Origin: Verrucomicrobiota bacterium
Lineage (GTDB): Bacteria; Verrucomicrobiota; Verrucomicrobiia; Chthoniobacterales; UBA10450
Reading direction: 5' to 3'
NCBI GenBank assembly: GCA_003218975.1
Contig: QHPD01000099.1
Coordinates: 1 to 64,000, forward strand
DNA: 64,000 bases
The position numbers were made by a program, and so were the translations under genes. The notes under the pieces are model-generated. The model saw only the letters and a program-made list of their open reading frames with translations, did not search any database and was not told the origin of the DNA. The first letter of the stretch is position 1, and each line of letters begins with the position of its first letter. Of this stretch, positions 10,137-62,698 are shown piece after piece.

Positions 10137-10144
10137 TTGCGCGC

Positions 10145-10207
10145 TGTAGCGGCAGGCGTGCCGCCTGCAAAATCGAAAAATTCGCAGCCGACACGGCTGC
10201 CTCTACA
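10145..10207. repeat. REP/BIME-like bipartite hairpin
   Basis: TGTAGCGGCAGGCGTGCCGCCTGC-N15-GCAGCCGACACGGCTGCCTCTACA; related copy at 57011-57071. Confidence 0.75.
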
Positions 10208-48896: not shown

Positions 48897-49682
48897 TTGG
48901 ATGGCGGTGTGCCTCCTCAGGATGAGGTGACTTCGTTGACCGGCATTGGTCCAGCAGTTGCGGGACAACAGGGGCGTGTCGCGTTTACGACGACACATTG
49001 GAGCATCGTGCTGGAGGCACAGATTGAATCGCCAGCGGCACAGGAAGCGCTCGAAAAACTTTGCCGCACTTATTGGCGACCCATCTATAGCTTCGTGAGG
49101 CGACAGGGGATTGGGCCAGAGCAGGCGGAGGATCTCACGCAGGGTTTCTTCGCGCTGCTGCTCGAACGCCGAGATCTGAACGTCGTCCGGAAAGAAAAGG
49201 GGCGACTTCGTTCTTATCTGCTTGTGTCGCTCAAACATTTTCTATCCGACGAGCGGCGTCGTGCGATGACTGCCAAGAGAGGCAAAGGTCAGCGACCGAT
49301 TCCATTGGAGGAGCTGGGCGCGAACGAGCGGGCCGATATTGAACCAGCGGATCCATTGACCGCCGAGCGAATTTACGAACGCCACTGGGCTTCGACAGTA
49401 TTGGAGCAAGTGTTCAGGCGATTAAAGGATGAATACCATGGGGCAGGTAACGCCACGTTATTTGATTGCCTGAAACAATTGCTACCGGACGAACCTGGCG
49501 CGCCATCACAGGGGGAGATCGCCGCGCGCTTGGGGATGACCGAAAATGCGATCCGTCAGGCGTTCCACCGATTTCGAAGGCGTTATCAATTCTTATTGCG
49601 GGAGGAGATTGCGCATACCGTTGCCATGCCCAGCGATATCGAAGACGAGCTGCGCCATCTCATTGCAGTGGTCCGCGCGTAG
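48897..49682 (+). CDS. ECF-type RNA polymerase sigma factor
   Basis: TTHWSIVLEA...LCRTYWRPIYSFVRRQG...AEDLTQGFFALLLER; region 4 GEIAARLGMTENAIRQAFHRFRRRY. Confidence 0.9.
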   Translation: MDGGVPPQDEVTSLTGIGPAVAGQQGRVAFTTTHWSIVLEAQIESPAAQEALEKLCRTYWRPIYSFVRRQGIGPEQAEDLTQGFFALLLERRDLNVVRKEKGRLRSYLLVSLKHFLSDERRRAMTAKRGKGQRPIPLEELGANERADIEPADPLTAERIYERHWASTVLEQVFRRLKDEYHGAGNATLFDCLKQLLPDEPGAPSQGEIAARLGMTENAIRQAFHRFRRRYQFLLREEIAHTVAMPSDIEDELRHLIAVVRA

Positions 49683-49789
49683 ACACGAATTACACGAATT
49701 GTCACGAATTTCATAAGACTTGAGTCAACCGTTGGATCAATTGGTGTGAATTAGTGAAATTCGCTTCTCGATCGATGTAATTTGTGTCT
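49681..49789. repeat. Type-1 word repeat, left flank of GxxExxY cassette A
   Basis: agacacgaattacacgaattgtcacgaatt (49681-49710) starting inside the sigma TAG; ttggtgtgaattagtgaaattcg (49741-49763); gatgtaatttgtgtct (49774-49789). Confidence 0.85.
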
Positions 49790-50158
49790 GAACTACTTTA
49801 CAAGGAAGAGGTTTTTCAACTCGTGGGTCTTTGCATGGAGATCCATCGTGAGTTGGGAAAGGGCCACGACGAAGTCATCTACAAGGACGCTCTAGTCGTT
49901 GAACTGAGTCGCGCTGGAATTCCGTTTTCGCGCGAGAAAAATTACGAAATCACATACAAAGGAGTTATCCTGCCTCACTATTACTACGGGGACTTCGTTG
50001 CCTGGGATAAAATTCTCTTCGAGGCCAAGGCCGTCGAAAAGCTGACCGACTCGCACATCAAACAAGTGTTGAACTATCTGGCCGCCTCGAACCTTCGCAT
50101 CGGCTTGCTGGTCAATTTCGGTGGCGATGTGTTGGAATGGAAAAGAGTTATTTTATAG
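49784..50158 (+). CDS. GxxExxY protein (PD-(D/E)XK nuclease-like), cassette A
   Basis: GHDEVIY; D...FEAK (YGDFVAWDKILFEAKAVEKL); GTG start lies in the flanking repeat, TAG stop starts the right repeat. Confidence 0.88.
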   Translation: MSELLYKEEVFQLVGLCMEIHRELGKGHDEVIYKDALVVELSRAGIPFSREKNYEITYKGVILPHYYYGDFVAWDKILFEAKAVEKLTDSHIKQVLNYLAASNLRIGLLVNFGGDVLEWKRVIL

Positions 50159-50257
50159 ACACGAATCGCACGAATAGTCACGAATGCGGCTGAGCAACTA
50201 GCGTGGGTTGGTGAAATTCGTGTCTGGTATTGGTGTGAATTAGTGAAATTCGTGTCT
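50156..50257. repeat. Type-1 word repeat, right flank of GxxExxY cassette A
   Basis: tagacacgaatcgcacgaatagtcacgaat (50156-50185), attcgtgtct at 50216-50225 and 50248-50257; 23-nt exact direct repeat of 49741-49763 at 50230-50252. Confidence 0.85.
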
Positions 50258-50331
50258 CATAAATAGAGGCGAGCGTAACGTATGGCAGAATTTTACGGAG
50301 TACAAAGGGGAGTGCCCGAGCGACTCCGACA

Positions 50332-53178
50332 ATGATTAGGGTAATCAGAATTTGCCGAAAGTGCGGCGCGAAAATCTTTTCTGACGCACCAGAAGGACTT
50401 TGCACCGGGTGCGTGCTGGAAACCGCGCTCGGGATGGCTGTAGCCGCTGGCGACTCGTCCGCCGTAGCCTCGGCGAAGGCGGATGGCTGCGGCTACCTGG
50501 ACAAGGTTGAAGGCGGAAATGTGAAGTCAGCGCAACACAAGATAGCCGCGCGCTCCGTGGAGATACTGGGAGAGTTGGGCGACTACGAGTTGCTGGAAGA
50601 AATCGGCCGCGGCGGCCAGGGCGTGGTATTTCGCGCACGACAAAAGAGTCTCAACCGCACAGTCGCGTTAAAAGTCATTGGACTCGGCCAGTGGGCGACG
50701 AAGGCGCATCTCCAGCGATTCCGTCTCGAAGCCGAGGCTGCGGCAAGTTTGGACCATCCATGCATTGTCCCAATTCACGACGTCGGCGAGCGCGAGGGCT
50801 GCTGCTACTTCAGCATGAACTTCGTCGAGGGGGGACAACTCGATGAAGTGGCCAGGCGCGAACCGATGCCGATCCGTCGCGCAGCAGAACTCATCGCAAA
50901 GCTGGCCCGCACGGTGCACTATGCGCACGAGCATGGCATCCTGCATCGAGACATCAAGCCGGGGAACGTTCTGCTTGATGCAAAAGGCGAACCGCATCTG
51001 ACCGATTTCGGGCTGGCACGACTGGTCGAATCGGAGAGCACCGTGACGCGCACGATGGAAGTTTTGGGCACACCCAGTTACATGGCGCCAGAGCAAGCAA
51101 TCGGTAACAACGCGCGCGTCGGCAGAGCCACAGATGTTTACGGGCTTGGCGCAGTGTTCTACCAATTGCTCACTGGCCACCCCCCTTTTGCTGGAGGGAC
51201 GACCTTTGAAACTGTGCGGCTGGTTTTGGACACCGAGCCGCGGAATCCGCGGCTCTGGAACCCAAAAGTCGATCGCGATTTGGCAACAATCTGCCTCAAA
51301 TGCCTCGAGAAAGATCCGCAGCGCCGTTACTCCTCGGCTCTGGCGCTGGCCGAAGATCTTGAACGCTGGCTAAAGCACGAACCGATTCGGGCGAAACGAA
51401 GCGGATTCTTCACGCACGGCCGCAAATGGGTGTGGCGGAATCCAACTATTGCCGTGTTGGTAGCGTCGTTGTTCGCACTGGCAGTGGCCGTGGGTGTGAT
51501 TATTTGGAAGAGCGAATTAGTTCAGCGCCCGACCCCGGTCAGGATCGCCGTGCTGCCATTTAAAAATCTGAGCACCGATCCGGAAAATGCATTTTTCGCC
51601 GACGCCGTACAGGACGAAGTGCTGACGGTTTTGGCAAAGGTCGCCGACCTCGAGGTCATTAGCCGAACATCAGCGGCGCATTACAGGACTGGGGTCGATC
51701 GCAATATGCGCGACATCGCCCACGAGTTGGGGGTCGCTTACGTGGTCGAAGGCAGCGCGCAACGTGCGGGCGATCGCATCCGTATCTCCGCTCAGTTGAT
51801 TAGTGCCCGCAGGGACACCCACCTCTGGGCCGAACACTACGACCGCCAGATCGCCGATGTGTTTGCCGTCCAGAGCGAAATCGCGCAACAGATCGCCGAT
51901 CAACTTCACGCCAGGCTTTCACCGGAAGAGAAAACAGCCATCGGCGAGCGACCCACCGCCGACTTGAAGGCTTACGCGCTTTACACGGAGGCAAGGGCAA
52001 TTGGCTCGTGGGACGACTGGAAGGGAGCAGAAAGAAGCATGGCCCAAAAAGTGGAGCTCCTGGAAGAGGCAACGCAGCGTGATCCGAAGTTTGTGCTCGC
52101 CTGGTGCGCCCTCGCGAAAGTGCAAGACGACTTTTTCGTTGCCGCGGGCGATCACACACACCTCGAGTTGGCGAAGAAAGCCGTAGACACCGCATTGCGA
52201 TTGCGACCGGACTTGGGCGAGACCCACCGGGAACTGGCACGTTACTACTTTTACGCTAACGAGTCCGATCGGGCGTATGACGAGCTGGCCGTCGCGCGTC
52301 GCACGCTGCCGAATGATTCTGAGGCGCTCTTCATCGCCGGCCGGATCGATCGCCACAAAAATCGCTGGGACGCTTCGCTGGCCAATTTACGAAAAGCGAG
52401 CGCACTCGACCCGCGTAATGAGGAGGTCACTTACCACCTCGCGCAGGATTACCGCTACCTGCGTCGCTATGACCTTTGGAAACACGACATTGAGAAACGC
52501 ATCGGCGAAGAGAGGACGGATGCATGGAATCAGTTGGGGCTGGCTGAGCTGAAATTGGATCAGGGCGATCTGATCGGCGCCCAGGCTGTTCTCGCGCAAA
52601 TGCCGCAGGACTGGAGTCCGACTTACGAGGTCTGGGATACTCGATTCACGACAGCCCTTTACCTGCACGATTATGATGCGGCCAGCCGGGTGATCGCGGC
52701 TGTTCCTGCGAGGTTCGCTGATTCCGTTATCGGTGGGAAACGCCCACGGAGTTGGGCCGACGGGCTGATTGCTCGTGCACGGGGCGATGGGCAGAAGGCG
52801 CAGGCCGTCTTTTCAGATGCGCGGAAGAAGGTGGATGTGACATGGGGCAACGGGGTCAAGGATGAGGATTACTTCGCGCAAATCGCAGGTCTCGATGCTG
52901 GGCTGGGCCGCAAAGATGAAGCCATCCGCGAGGCACGGCGGGCGGTCGATCTCATGCCGATTACCAAGGATTCGTGGACAGGTCCGCGGCTGCTCACCAA
53001 CCTGGCACTGGTTTACGCTTGGACCGGCGAGCGCGATCTGGCGATAGAGCAGCTCGAGAGACTCGCGAAAACTCCGGGCGGTCCAACCTACGGCGACCTC
53101 CGCTTCAATCCATGCTGGGGTTCTCTGCGCGGCGATCCGCGCTTTGAAAAAATCGTCGCCTCGCTCGCGCCGAAATAG
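50332..53178 (+). CDS. Ser/Thr protein kinase with Zn-ribbon N-terminus, TolB/CadC-like domain and TPRs
   Basis: CRKCGAKIFSDAPEGLCTGC; GRGGQGVVFRARQ; HRDIKPGNVLLD; DFGLARL; IAVLPFKNLSTDPENAFFADAVQDEVLTVLAK; TPR region. Confidence 0.95.
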   Translation: MIRVIRICRKCGAKIFSDAPEGLCTGCVLETALGMAVAAGDSSAVASAKADGCGYLDKVEGGNVKSAQHKIAARSVEILGELGDYELLEEIGRGGQGVVFRARQKSLNRTVALKVIGLGQWATKAHLQRFRLEAEAAASLDHPCIVPIHDVGEREGCCYFSMNFVEGGQLDEVARREPMPIRRAAELIAKLARTVHYAHEHGILHRDIKPGNVLLDAKGEPHLTDFGLARLVESESTVTRTMEVLGTPSYMAPEQAIGNNARVGRATDVYGLGAVFYQLLTGHPPFAGGTTFETVRLVLDTEPRNPRLWNPKVDRDLATICLKCLEKDPQRRYSSALALAEDLERWLKHEPIRAKRSGFFTHGRKWVWRNPTIAVLVASLFALAVAVGVIIWKSELVQRPTPVRIAVLPFKNLSTDPENAFFADAVQDEVLTVLAKVADLEVISRTSAAHYRTGVDRNMRDIAHELGVAYVVEGSAQRAGDRIRISAQLISARRDTHLWAEHYDRQIADVFAVQSEIAQQIADQLHARLSPEEKTAIGERPTADLKAYALYTEARAIGSWDDWKGAERSMAQKVELLEEATQRDPKFVLAWCALAKVQDDFFVAAGDHTHLELAKKAVDTALRLRPDLGETHRELARYYFYANESDRAYDELAVARRTLPNDSEALFIAGRIDRHKNRWDASLANLRKASALDPRNEEVTYHLAQDYRYLRRYDLWKHDIEKRIGEERTDAWNQLGLAELKLDQGDLIGAQAVLAQMPQDWSPTYEVWDTRFTTALYLHDYDAASRVIAAVPARFADSVIGGKRPRSWADGLIARARGDGQKAQAVFSDARKKVDVTWGNGVKDEDYFAQIAGLDAGLGRKDEAIREARRAVDLMPITKDSWTGPRLLTNLALVYAWTGERDLAIEQLERLAKTPGGPTYGDLRFNPCWGSLRGDPRFEKIVASLAPK
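50440..50496. repeat. REP-like nested palindrome embedded in kinase ORF
   Basis: GTAGCCGC (50440-50447)/GCGGCTAC (50489-50496) outside TCCGCC (50458-50463)/GGCGGA (50478-50483). Confidence 0.6.
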
Positions 53179-53183
53179 ACTTC

Positions 53184-53210
53184 ACCGCGGATTACACTGA
53201 TCACGCGGAT
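53184..53210 (+). repeat. Type-2 word repeat, left inverted flank of HicAB cassette
   Basis: accgcggattacactgatcacgcggat, 5 nt after kinase TAG. Confidence 0.85.
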
Positions 53211-53277
53211 AAGTTGGGAGACGGGCTTAACAGGCTGTATGGCAAACTCCTCACCCAGCAAACGTGGCAGCGACTGA

Positions 53278-53523
53278 TCACGCACGCTGCAGCTTCGGCT
53301 CGTTCTGAATCACGATGGTCGGATTCGGATTGGACGCTGGTACGGGCAAGCCTTGCTGACGCAGCATCTGCGTGTGATCTGCCATGCCCCAACGCGCTTT
53401 ATAAAGGCAATCTTCGATCGAATGGCCGATGCCGGTGAACCCTTCAAGGTCAGGAGAGTAAAAGCCAAAAAAATCAGGCTCCCCGGTAGCTTCGATAACG
53501 AGTGAATACGGCAACGTAATCAT
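53278..53523 (-). CDS. HicB-family antitoxin
   Basis: MITLPYSLVIEATGEPDFFGFYSPDLEGFTGIGHSIEDCLYKARWGMADH partial RNase H-like fold; immediately downstream of hicA. Confidence 0.8.
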   Translation of the reverse strand: MITLPYSLVIEATGEPDFFGFYSPDLEGFTGIGHSIEDCLYKARWGMADHTQMLRQQGLPVPASNPNPTIVIQNEPKLQRA

Positions 53524-53531
53524 GATTCTCT

Positions 53532-53732
53532 CTATTTTCCTTTCAGACCAGCAGCTTTCATGATCGCATGGCACGTGCCCGTCGGGACTTCTTTCGCGCC
53601 ATGGAAATCTACACGAATCAAATGAGGATGGCCAGCTTTCATGTAATAGCGAATCGATCCTTTCTGTTTTATCAGACGGAAGCCTTCCTGTTCGAGCAAC
53701 CGAATCAGCTCGCTGAATTTCATTCGCGGCAA
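53532..53732 (-). CDS. HicA-family toxin
   Basis: KFSELIRLLEQEGFRLIKQKGSIRYYMKAGHPHLIRVDFHGAKEVPTGTCHAIMKAAGLK. Confidence 0.85.
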   Translation of the reverse strand: MPRMKFSELIRLLEQEGFRLIKQKGSIRYYMKAGHPHLIRVDFHGAKEVPTGTCHAIMKAAGLKGK

Positions 53733-53840
53733 CGATAGCAGGACGGGAGAAATACCTGCAAGCCGGCAGCCGATTCAACGCGTCAACTCCGAAAGCATTC
53801 TTCGCTGCCTTGGTTTCCTTCTGTTTCGTTTGTTCCCCAT

Positions 53841-53867
53841 ATCCGTGTAATCCGCGACATCCGCGGT
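53841..53867 (-). repeat. Type-2 word repeat, right inverted flank of HicAB cassette
   Basis: Reverse complement accgcggatgtcgcggattacacggat. Confidence 0.85.
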
Positions 53868-53940
53868 TCCTAAATCTTCACCTTTCCGCGTAACGGGCGG
53901 CCAAATTTCGCGCAGTACACCAGTGAACGGTCAGAAACGG

Positions 53941-53957
53941 CTTCTCACGGTGAGAAG
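53941..53957. promoter_or_regulatory. Palindrome cttctcacggtgagaag upstream of S74 protein gene
   Basis: 8-bp arms CTTCTCAC/GTGAGAAG, 36 bp before the ATG. Confidence 0.35.
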
Positions 53958-53992
53958 TCGAAGAAGGCCAAAATAAGAAAAGGAAATCAAAT

Positions 53993-55183
53993 ATGAAAAA
54001 ACGAAACATTACATTCACAACGATTCTGCTGGTGCTTGGCTGCTTTTCGCTTTCGCCGACGGCTCGCGCGCTTAACCCGCCACCCGACGGAGGTTATCGC
54101 AACCAAACTACCGCTGAGGGTGATGGTGCGCTCTTCAGCCTTACAACCGGCGCCGACAACACGGCGATTGGTTTTAATGCGCTCCATAGTCTTACCATCG
54201 GTTCGGAAGCTACGGCCACTGGCTCTCTAGCGCTTTTTAACGACACAACCGGCTTCAACACAGCCTACGGTTTTAAAGCGCTCTATAGCAACACAGACGG
54301 GTTCGCCAACGTGGCCATTGGTCGTAACGCAATGCGGGACCACACGACCGGCGACCACAACACGGCCACTGGTGGTGCAGCGCTCTTATTCAACACGGAC
54401 GGCACCGGCAACACCGCCACCGGTCGTGCAGCAATGGGTTTCGGCACAACCGGCTCCATAAACGCCGCCACCGGTTGGCAAGCGCTCTTTAACAACACCG
54501 GCGACGAAAACACGGCCGACGGTGCTTTTGCGCTCTATAGCAACACCACTGGTAACGGAAACATCGCCTTGGGCGCTGGCGCCGGTGACAATCTCACCAC
54601 CGGCGACAACAATATCGACATCGGCAACGAAGGTTTTGCTGGCGAGGCCAACACTATCCGCATCGGCACGAGCGGAGATCAGACAAAAACGTTTATCGCT
54701 GGCATTAGTGGGACAGCGGTTACGGGTGTGGCAGTTCGTGTAAGCAGCAGCGGTCAACTTGGCACAGCGCCCTCCTCGGAGCGTTTCAAGGACGAGATCA
54801 AGCCCATGGACAAGGCAAGCGAAGCGATTCTGGCGCTCAAACCGGTCAGCTTCCGCTACAAGCACGAGGTCGATCCGGAAGGTACTCCGCAGTTTGGCCT
54901 CGTGGCTGAAGAGGTGGAAAAAGTGGACCCCGCTCTCGTGGCTCGCGATGCCCAAGGGAAAGTCTACACCGTGCGTTACGAGGCGGTAAACGCGATGTTG
55001 CTTAACGAGTTCCTCAAACAGCACCGCAATGTGCAGGAATTGGAAGCGACGGCTGTGGAGCAGCAGAAAGAAATTAAAACCCTCACTGCAAGCCTGAAAG
55101 AGCAAGCATCACAAATCCAAAAGGTGAACGCACAGCTCGCAGTGAGCAAACCTGCGCCGCAAATGGTCCTCAACAATCAGTAA
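53993..55183 (+). CDS. Secreted YadA-head-like repeat protein with C-terminal peptidase S74 intramolecular chaperone domain
   Basis: Signal peptide; repeats NTAxGxxALxxNTxG; C-terminus SSERFKDEIKPMDKASEAILALKPVSFRYKHEVDPEGTPQFGLVAEEVEKVDPALV. Confidence 0.9.
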   Translation: MKKRNITFTTILLVLGCFSLSPTARALNPPPDGGYRNQTTAEGDGALFSLTTGADNTAIGFNALHSLTIGSEATATGSLALFNDTTGFNTAYGFKALYSNTDGFANVAIGRNAMRDHTTGDHNTATGGAALLFNTDGTGNTATGRAAMGFGTTGSINAATGWQALFNNTGDENTADGAFALYSNTTGNGNIALGAGAGDNLTTGDNNIDIGNEGFAGEANTIRIGTSGDQTKTFIAGISGTAVTGVAVRVSSSGQLGTAPSSERFKDEIKPMDKASEAILALKPVSFRYKHEVDPEGTPQFGLVAEEVEKVDPALVARDAQGKVYTVRYEAVNAMLLNEFLKQHRNVQELEATAVEQQKEIKTLTASLKEQASQIQKVNAQLAVSKPAPQMVLNNQ

Positions 55184-57010: not shown

Positions 57011-57071
57011 TGTAGTGGCAGCCGTGCCGGCTGCGGGTCTGCACGATGCAGGCGACACGCCTGCCGCTACA
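57011..57071. repeat. REP/BIME-like bipartite hairpin
   Basis: TGTAGTGGCAGCCGTGCCGGCTGC...GCAGGCGACACGCCTGCCGCTACA; reverse complement of the 10145-10207 architecture. Confidence 0.75.
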
Positions 57072-57102
57072 GCTGAAGATCCGCGATGCGGATCGCTGTT
57101 CG

Positions 57103-60823: not shown

Positions 60824-62247
60824 CGATAATGCTCAGATTTAAACGGGCCGTCGATTGGCACGCCGAGGTAATCGGCTTGTTTTTCAGAAAGCTTCGTGAG
60901 TTTGACGCCGATTTTTTCCAGGTTCAGGCGCGCGACTTCTTCGTCGAGCTTCTTCGGCAAAACGTAAACGCCGACTTTATACGTGTCGCGATTTTCCCAG
61001 AGATCCAACTGCGCAAGAACCTGGTTGGAAAATGAGTTGGACATGACGAAGCTCGGGTGACCAGTGGCGCAACCGAGGTTTACCAGGCGGCCCTCGGCGA
61101 GCAGGAAAATTTCGTGTCCATCCGGGAACGTGTACTTGTCCACCTGTGGTTTGATGTTGGTTTTTTTCACGCCTTTGGCTGCGTTGAGCGCATCGACCTG
61201 AATTTCGTGGTCGAAATGGCCGATGTTGGCGACGATCGCCTGATCTTTCATCTGCTGCATGTGTTCGAGCGTGATGACGTCGACGTTGCCGCTGGCAGTA
61301 ATATAAATGTCGCCGCGGCCCAGTGTCTCTTCGACAGTCGTGACCTCGTAGCCTTCCATTGCCGCCTGCAACGCGTTGATCGGATCGATCTCAGTAACGA
61401 CCACACGCGCGCCTTGGCCGCGCAATGATTGCGCGCACCCTTTGCCGACGTCGCCGTAACCGCAAATGACGGCGACCTTGCCGGAAAGCATCACATCCAG
61501 CGCGCGATTTAATCCATCGACCAACGAATGCCGACAGCCGTAAAGATTATCGAACTTCGATTTCGTGACAGAATCGTTGACGTTAATCGCAGGTACAAGG
61601 AGCCGGTTCTCCTGATGCATTTTATAAAGCCGATGCACGCCGGTCGTAGTTTCTTCCGAAACGCCGCGCCAATCCTTCACGATCTCATGCCAGCGATACG
61701 GATTTTCACGATGAATTTCGAGCAGCAAATCTTTGATGACCTGTTCTTCCTTGTTCGCCGATTTTGTTTTTGCCCAATCGCTGCCTTCTTCGAGCTCGTA
61801 GCCTTTGTGAATGAGCAAGGTGGCGTCGCCGCCATCATCGACTACCAGTTGCGGCCCTTTGCCGTCCGGGTGTGAAATCGCCCGGTAGGTGCACCACCAG
61901 TAATCTTCGAGCGATTCGCCTTTCCACGCGAACACAGACACGCCGCTCTGCGCGACCGCAGCCGCAGCATGATCTTGCGTTGAGAAAATGTTGCAGCTCG
62001 CCCAGCGCACGCTTGCGCCGAGATCGGAAAGCGTTTCAATCAAAACCGCTGTTTGGATCGTCATGTGCAACGAGCCAGTGATGCGCACGCCTGCGAGCGG
62101 TTTCTGTGCCGCGTATCTTTCGCGGATTGCCATCAGACCCGGCATCTCCTTTTCCGCGATGGAGATTTCTTTTCTTCCGAAATTCGCCAACGAGATGTCG
62201 GCGATCTTATAATCCGTTTTCGTGTCTTCGATTGTCGATGTTTTCAT
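60817..62247 (-). CDS. ahcY: Adenosylhomocysteinase
   Basis: [18 protein letters not shown]-like region; [29 protein letters not shown]-terminal [11 protein letters not shown]. Confidence 0.97.
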
Positions 62248-62672
62248 AATGCGATTGGTTCGAGGTCATCCGCAGATTTCGCAGATTTACGCGGATTCCC
62301 AGAGGAGGTGAGAACGAGCCGTTTAAATTGTAGGCTTGATGCGCCGAAATTCAGCAGCAAGCCGCGCTGAAAACCGGCGGCTTTTACCTCGTTGATCAGC
62401 TGTGCATCATCTGTGCGTGTGAGTTCGGCGATCGCTTTCGTTTCTACGAGCAGTTCTTCGTAGCAAATGAAGTCGGCTCGGTAACCACATGTGAGCAGGT
62501 TGCCTTTGTAGCGAACGGGCAGCGGGACCTCAGCGCGAAATGATATTTGTCGTTCTTGGAATTCCAGTGCCAGTGCGCATTGATATACGGCTTCGAGAAA
62601 TCCGAAGCCGAGTTCGCGATGCACTTCCATTGCGGCACCGATGACCGCGTGACTCTGTGGATTCTTCTGCAT
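62244..62672 (-). CDS. GxxExxY protein (PD-(D/E)XK nuclease-like), cassette B
   Basis: [34 protein letters not shown]; stop overlaps ahcY ATG (ATGA). Confidence 0.9.
62267..62297 (+). repeat. Type-3 word repeat, left inverted flank of cassette B
   Basis: catccgcagatttcgcagatttacgcggatt. Confidence 0.85.
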
Positions 62673-62676
62673 TTTT

Positions 62677-62698
62677 AATCTGCGTAAATCTGCGGATG
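62677..62698 (-). repeat. Type-3 word repeat, right inverted flank of cassette B
   Basis: Reverse complement catccgcagatttacgcagatt, directly after metK TAG (62700-62702). Confidence 0.85.

Follow-up and report, generated by a model that had tools for sequence, protein, structure and literature searches.

A hicA-hicB pair in the loop of a probable resident word palindrome, and word-armed GxxExxY and S23 cassettes at other loci

Introduction

Within the 64-kb window (the whole stretch of DNA analysed), a hicA-hicB gene pair lies between a Ser/Thr kinase gene and a tail-fibre-like gene and is flanked by short, inward-pointing arms built from repeated 7-nt words. We consider it probable that these arms belong to one word palindrome resident at the site, with hicAB as a passenger in its loop. 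By itself the hicAB case describes one unusual occupant, but it exposes a pattern that crosses phyla: a small, nuclease-like GxxExxY gene, matched word arms that follow the lineage of the protein, and both empty and alternative fillings at a single site. This pattern provides GxxExxY with a role that can be tested, and raises anew the old question of how 23S rRNA intervening sequences (IVS) originated and whether they are mobilised by the S23 protein. Word-armed single-gene cassettes are well supported, their mobility being putative; arm-driven movement of hicAB is not supported.

Results

Word arms around the hicAB pair

The left arm (53184-53211, forward strand) reads ACCGCGGAT TACACTGAT CACGCGGAT A, and the reverse complement of the right arm (53840-53867, reverse strand) reads ACCGCGGAT GTCGCGGAT TACACGGAT A. 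Each comprises three CRCNRAT words at a period of 9 nt, pointing inwards around hicB and hicA, and the two arms stand 628 nt apart with a complementarity of 79% over 28 nt (15/16 in a 16-nt core). With its words left out of account, the inverted repeat stands out only moderately, its local score of 27 being reached by 0.56% of 1960 random flank pairs of equal size from the same genome; this score is below the cut-off of 30 used for GxxExxY loci (see below), and the arms were accepted on the basis of concordant word structure at the gene borders. It is because of this word structure that the arms are considered non-random: six three-word CRCNRAT arrays occur in the window versus none in 200 shuffles, and 136 word pairs occur in the genome versus two for a reversed control pattern. 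The original observation of inverted arms at this place is confirmed.

The kinase-TPR gene (50332-53178, forward strand), which shares its 3' end with many paralogs, several having word palindromes downstream, terminates in a TAG at 53176-53178; the left arm begins 5 nt downstream, as had been noted. The claim that the arms bracket exactly the hicA-hicB pair holds for the bracketing and fails for its exactness, with gaps of 66 nt from the left arm to the hicB stop and 116 nt from the hicA start to the right arm. The arm word, CRCGGAT, was correctly recognized as a third repeat word, beside the CACGAAT and CRCAGAT found at two genuine GxxExxY genes (TIGR04256/PF13366) in the window.

Properties of the hicA and hicB genes

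Both genes are on the reverse strand, hicA (53532-53723; 63 aa) upstream of hicB (53278-53523; 81 aa), the order found in type II toxin-antitoxin systems of this family (PF07927; PDB 4c26, 6g26). The predicted HicA belongs to the HicA fold family, matching PF07927 with E=5e-14 and the structure 4c26 with E=8e-9. It differs, together with three relatives, in having GSI in place of GSH at the start of beta-2 and thus an isoleucine where characterised HicA toxins need the histidine (PMC12297915), so that toxicity of the window protein is only putative. The HicB-like product, with relatives 85-86% identical in three genomes, had no match in Pfam or NCBIfam at E<=0.001, and it is named for its location and for being conserved together with hicA. 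Purifying selection acts on both genes (dN/dS about 0.03-0.08 for hicB and 0.04-0.08 for hicA, among pairs that could be estimated). A segment preceding hicA (53724-53768, reverse strand), similar in genomes G024, G008 and G039 by a partly by-eye alignment, may serve as promoter or leader of the hicAB unit.

The kinase-S74 site with and without hicAB

The right border of the site is a conserved segment (53880-53999, forward strand) upstream of a repeat gene (53993-55183, forward strand) that has no NCBIfam hit and is taken to be S74/tail-fibre-like. This kinase-to-S74 arrangement recurs in the genus. Six instances, which are paralogs or relatives rather than proven strict orthologs of the window locus, keep the left junction without hicAB (G000:C140, G000:C116, G023:C138, G023:C177, G014:C206 and G020:C203): the kinase stop is followed by a few nucleotides ending in CACC and then by the word arm, and the resulting unfilled palindromes have a loop of ~95 nt in common. 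The outer flank of the right arm in the window, GGTTCYTAARTCTTC, is common to unfilled sites; the outer right junction (GGTT.. and then TTTCCGCGTAA) is retained in C140, C138, C206 and C203, the last two of which have a right arm in partial decay, and lost in C116 and C177. Some kinase-S74 junctions, such as that of G015:C2, have no palindrome at all. The best DNA matches to the kinase (in G025, G028, G009 and G032) were rejected as empty-site orthologs, being neither syntenic nor provided with words, and kinase-S74 pairs were taken instead.

The window locus has arms in which 7-nt words of CRCNRA type stand about three in a row at a 9-10 nt period, and a gene-less short form at the corresponding site, features of GxxExxY-type word-armed elements, with hicAB between the arms in place of a GxxExxY gene. 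No trace of the original ~95-nt loop is left in the window, so that the favored reading has to suppose that the loop was replaced and not simply inserted into.

Relatives of hicAB at other loci

Relatives at 85-86% identity are rare. Four HicAB relatives are unbracketed. At G012:C69 there are no words; at G008:C75 a closed palindrome lies next to the pair and not around it; G024:C190 has a tandem pair among scattered words; and at G030:C346 a hicB remnant adjoins an S74 gene, without arms. The tandem pair is on a small contig (locus L163), where other toxin-antitoxin-like genes also occur among the words. In G039, a member of another genus, a closed palindrome at the end of a kinase gene has a hicB remnant directly beside it, on the outside; given this remnant, the association of hicAB with the palindrome neighbourhood may be older and since rearranged.

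Among 28 HicA loci of the genus with usable flanks, only the window copy has, as its best inverted pair, concordant words that lie at the borders of the genes, and none of the 28 attains a score of 30, the window copy (27) included, versus 24 of 31 GxxExxY loci examined with a different flank width. The hicA gene at G000:C90 is accompanied by ACAGAAT words, but at a distance. Taken with the unbracketed relatives, these scores indicate that hicAB is not generally bracketed, though the kinase-end neighbourhood recurs. The same hicAB with arms at independent sites was not found among the relatives, the HicA loci of the genus or G039; no HicB match was found on plasmids, and viral contigs yielded only distant HicA matches (40-50%).

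GxxExxY cassettes and their arms

Two cassettes of the GxxExxY family (TIGR04256/PF13366, PDDEXK_3) occur in the window and have arms of the same CRCNRAT word class as the hicAB element, from which they differ in that its loop holds hicAB. Cassette 1 (49681-50258, forward strand; gene 49784-50158) is flanked by CACGAAT-word palindromes, both nearly closed rather than two half-arms. Cassette 2 (62244-62697, reverse strand; gene 62244-62672) lies between metK and ahcY, with CRCAGAT arms at 62271-62296 and 62678-62694. A further GxxExxY gene, at G000:C90, is likewise armed, with CGCGGAT words. In contig C39 a frame-broken GxxExxY copy (L392, 6548-6992) still has its arms.

Using a score cut-off of at least 30 that was fixed after a first look, with loci placed by match coordinates and flanks of family-specific width (220-260 nt for GxxExxY and S23, 350 nt for RAYT, 650 nt for HicA), matched inverted arms were found at 24 of 31 GxxExxY (PF13366) loci of the genus, a few of the counted pairs consisting of words not of the CRC type. 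Control ORFs reached the cut-off in seven of 758 cases (0.9%; Fisher p about 1e-33 against the genus loci), a conservative comparison given that these ORFs were drawn from contigs chosen for having words. Wider sets gave 25/28 loci in the phylum and 54/77 in a multi-phylum collection. Between 8 and 10% of mismatched left-right arm pairs also attained the cut-off, indicating that words are common to some loci while the best match is within a locus. Similarity of words tracks similarity of the GxxExxY proteins in the multi-phylum set (Mantel r=0.56, 2000 permutations, p<=0.0005), for 51 loci preselected for arms of at least 30 from sequences fetched with CRCAGAT-clade patterns and enriched for that clade. 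Such a correlation would be equally expected if gene and arms were inherited or moved as one unit, rather than through recognition.

The concern that homologous repeats might never flank discrete genes in other genomes is dispelled by these counts and by the S23 genes described below, which are armed with other words; the suggestion that cargo type and repeat word might be related is borne out, as the word depends on the lineage of the cargo.

A structure model of GxxExxY (pLDDT 89.5) has a PD-(D/E)XK-like fold. Its best PDB match is SSO0001, presumably a Cas4-like protein (E=4e-3), with a Holliday junction resolvase further down, and no PDB match was obtained at E<=0.001; a profile match to T7 endonuclease I (E=0.3) is a lead only. 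Judging from the predicted fold, a nuclease directed at junctions or hairpins is plausible.

Alternative occupants of the metK-ahcY site

Among 30 metK-ahcY loci in the genus (L424-L453), the spacing is 26-69 bp, or empty, in 18. The site is filled with GxxExxY and CRCAGAT arms in G000, G034, G013 (shortened) and G026, and G017 contains a 192-bp GxxExxY remnant. In G012, G023 and G025 the occupant is an S23 (PF05635) four-helix-bundle gene with different word arms of its own; the other loci of the 30 are intermediate, cut off or unmeasurable. No target duplication was defined at this site, where the flanks of empty copies are too diverged. Considering all S23 loci of the genus (L454-L483), arms are present at 22/30, versus 8.5% of mismatched pairs, with words of another grammar that include GTTGAGA, GTGACGA and GGTCAGA, among others. 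The search for empty sites that had been proposed thus succeeded, with empty and filled states at metK-ahcY and unfilled palindromes at kinase-S74 sites. The cassette layout proposed by analogy is supported for GxxExxY and S23 genes and not supported for hicAB, whose relatives are unbracketed and whose palindrome occurs without it in paralogs and other species.

Gene-less palindromes in the genome

In a partial survey of 1.40 Mb of this genome, taken in stretches and partly biased to word-rich contigs, about 19 inverted word pairs, chosen by eye for matching words, enclose ~16-100 nt and no gene. Where matching-word pairs in the same 1.40 Mb do enclose a gene, it is GxxExxY, with hicAB as the sole exception. 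Seven gene-less palindromes were folded, and all form long predicted hairpins (z -3.5 to -6.8). Mixed word arrays are very dense on the contigs of three loci, L031 (C90), L046 (C31) and L045 (C62), with hicA, HepT-like and GxxExxY genes among them.

Discussion

Origin of the hicAB arrangement

In the explanation we favor and consider probable, the arms would be two halves of one word palindrome that already resided between the kinase and S74 genes: a short, hairpin-forming element, each arm of which repeats a 7-nt word about three times, from the family that brackets GxxExxY in many phyla. Its ~95-nt loop would have been replaced in this genome by the hicA-hicB pair with its own leader. Word palindromes would be short, non-autonomous relatives of GxxExxY cassettes, and the PD-(D/E)XK protein may act, with a word preference, on the extruded hairpin or junction. 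The hicAB genes may have been captured in the loop or have landed there, and would be kept by selection of their own and not by the arms. The nuclease role and the mobility are inferences, as are the succession of events and the entry route of hicAB; parsimony suggests that the change ran from the unfilled to the hicAB-filled state.

If the arms and hicAB instead travelled together as a single mobile unit, in the manner of a GxxExxY or S23 cassette, matched words shortly behind a stop codon, a natural boundary, would be expected, and word-armed cassettes of both kinds do exist, different ones even occupying the same metK-ahcY site. This reading is nonetheless unlikely, as no HicAB relative is bracketed, no HicA locus, the window copy included, reaches the arm score attained by 24 of 31 GxxExxY loci (flank widths differing between the two sets), and the same outer junctions occur without hicAB. 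Slightly less likely still is that two separate elements of one word class flank hicAB, each having lost its inner half. Word palindromes are indeed common next to kinase ends, and closed ones lie beside and not around hicAB in G039 and G008, but the window locus has the outer borders of a single unfilled palindrome, and half of an element would have to have been lost twice independently. It is very improbable that the arms are ordinary regulatory signals of the kinase or hicAB (a terminator, RNase III site or operator). Their position just after stop codons and the good folding of the closed form would agree with this, but 628 nt with hicAB separate them, the same words also enclose GxxExxY genes in different phyla and vary in step with the protein, and arms are missing at other hicAB loci.

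Relationship to known elements

Besides the resident palindrome proposed for the window, the broader set of word-armed loci can be compared with described systems. The nearest known architecture is that of 23S rRNA IVS with an S23 ORF (PF05635), followed by REP/REPIN-RAYT and TIRtrons. In Coxiella the IVS is a 428-nt sequence with an S23 ORF, its terminal inverted repeats forming a stem and the small ORF lying in the loop, and such sequences are regarded as selfish (PMC4990558). The window element differs in its location, an intergenic kinase-S74 site rather than rRNA, in its tandem degenerate words and in its hicAB cargo. S23 genes of the genus are also word-armed and, unlike those of 23S rRNA IVS, are, judging from metK-ahcY, not located in rRNA; GxxExxY and S23 elements use different words.

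Tentatively, and with less confidence than we place in the resident palindrome, word-armed single-gene cassettes may be minimal mobile elements of a class not described so far. The GxxExxY nuclease and the S23 bundle would each recognise their own word grammar in hairpin arms, gene-less palindromes would be non-autonomous copies able to acquire genes from elsewhere, hicAB among them, and 23S rRNA IVS would be one branch. The element type is widespread and apparently undescribed, and hicAB seems to be an uncommon passenger in it. A search of open-licence papers turned up no description of word arms at GxxExxY genes, an absence that is no proof of novelty.

MITEs (PMC10969869) resemble these palindromes in being short and non-coding, in having inverted repeats and in lying beside genes; they differ in that word elements have no known parent transposase, and in that the arms of word elements vary between copies yet match within a copy. 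REP/REPIN sequences with RAYT and TIRtrons (PMC3733652) share the combination of many short palindromes with a few gene-carrying copies that have inverted ends, but the window element has no Y1 transposase. RAYT (Y1) transposases were rejected as owners of the words, their ends being different: loci of the genus (L223-L246) have long double-hairpin ends of their own (21/23), unrelated to the words. The window also contains a REP-like inverted pair, GCTGTAGCGGCAGGCGTGCCGCCTGCA, at 10143-10169 and 57047-57073 (96%), and similar sequence occurs in other kinase-S74 junctions.
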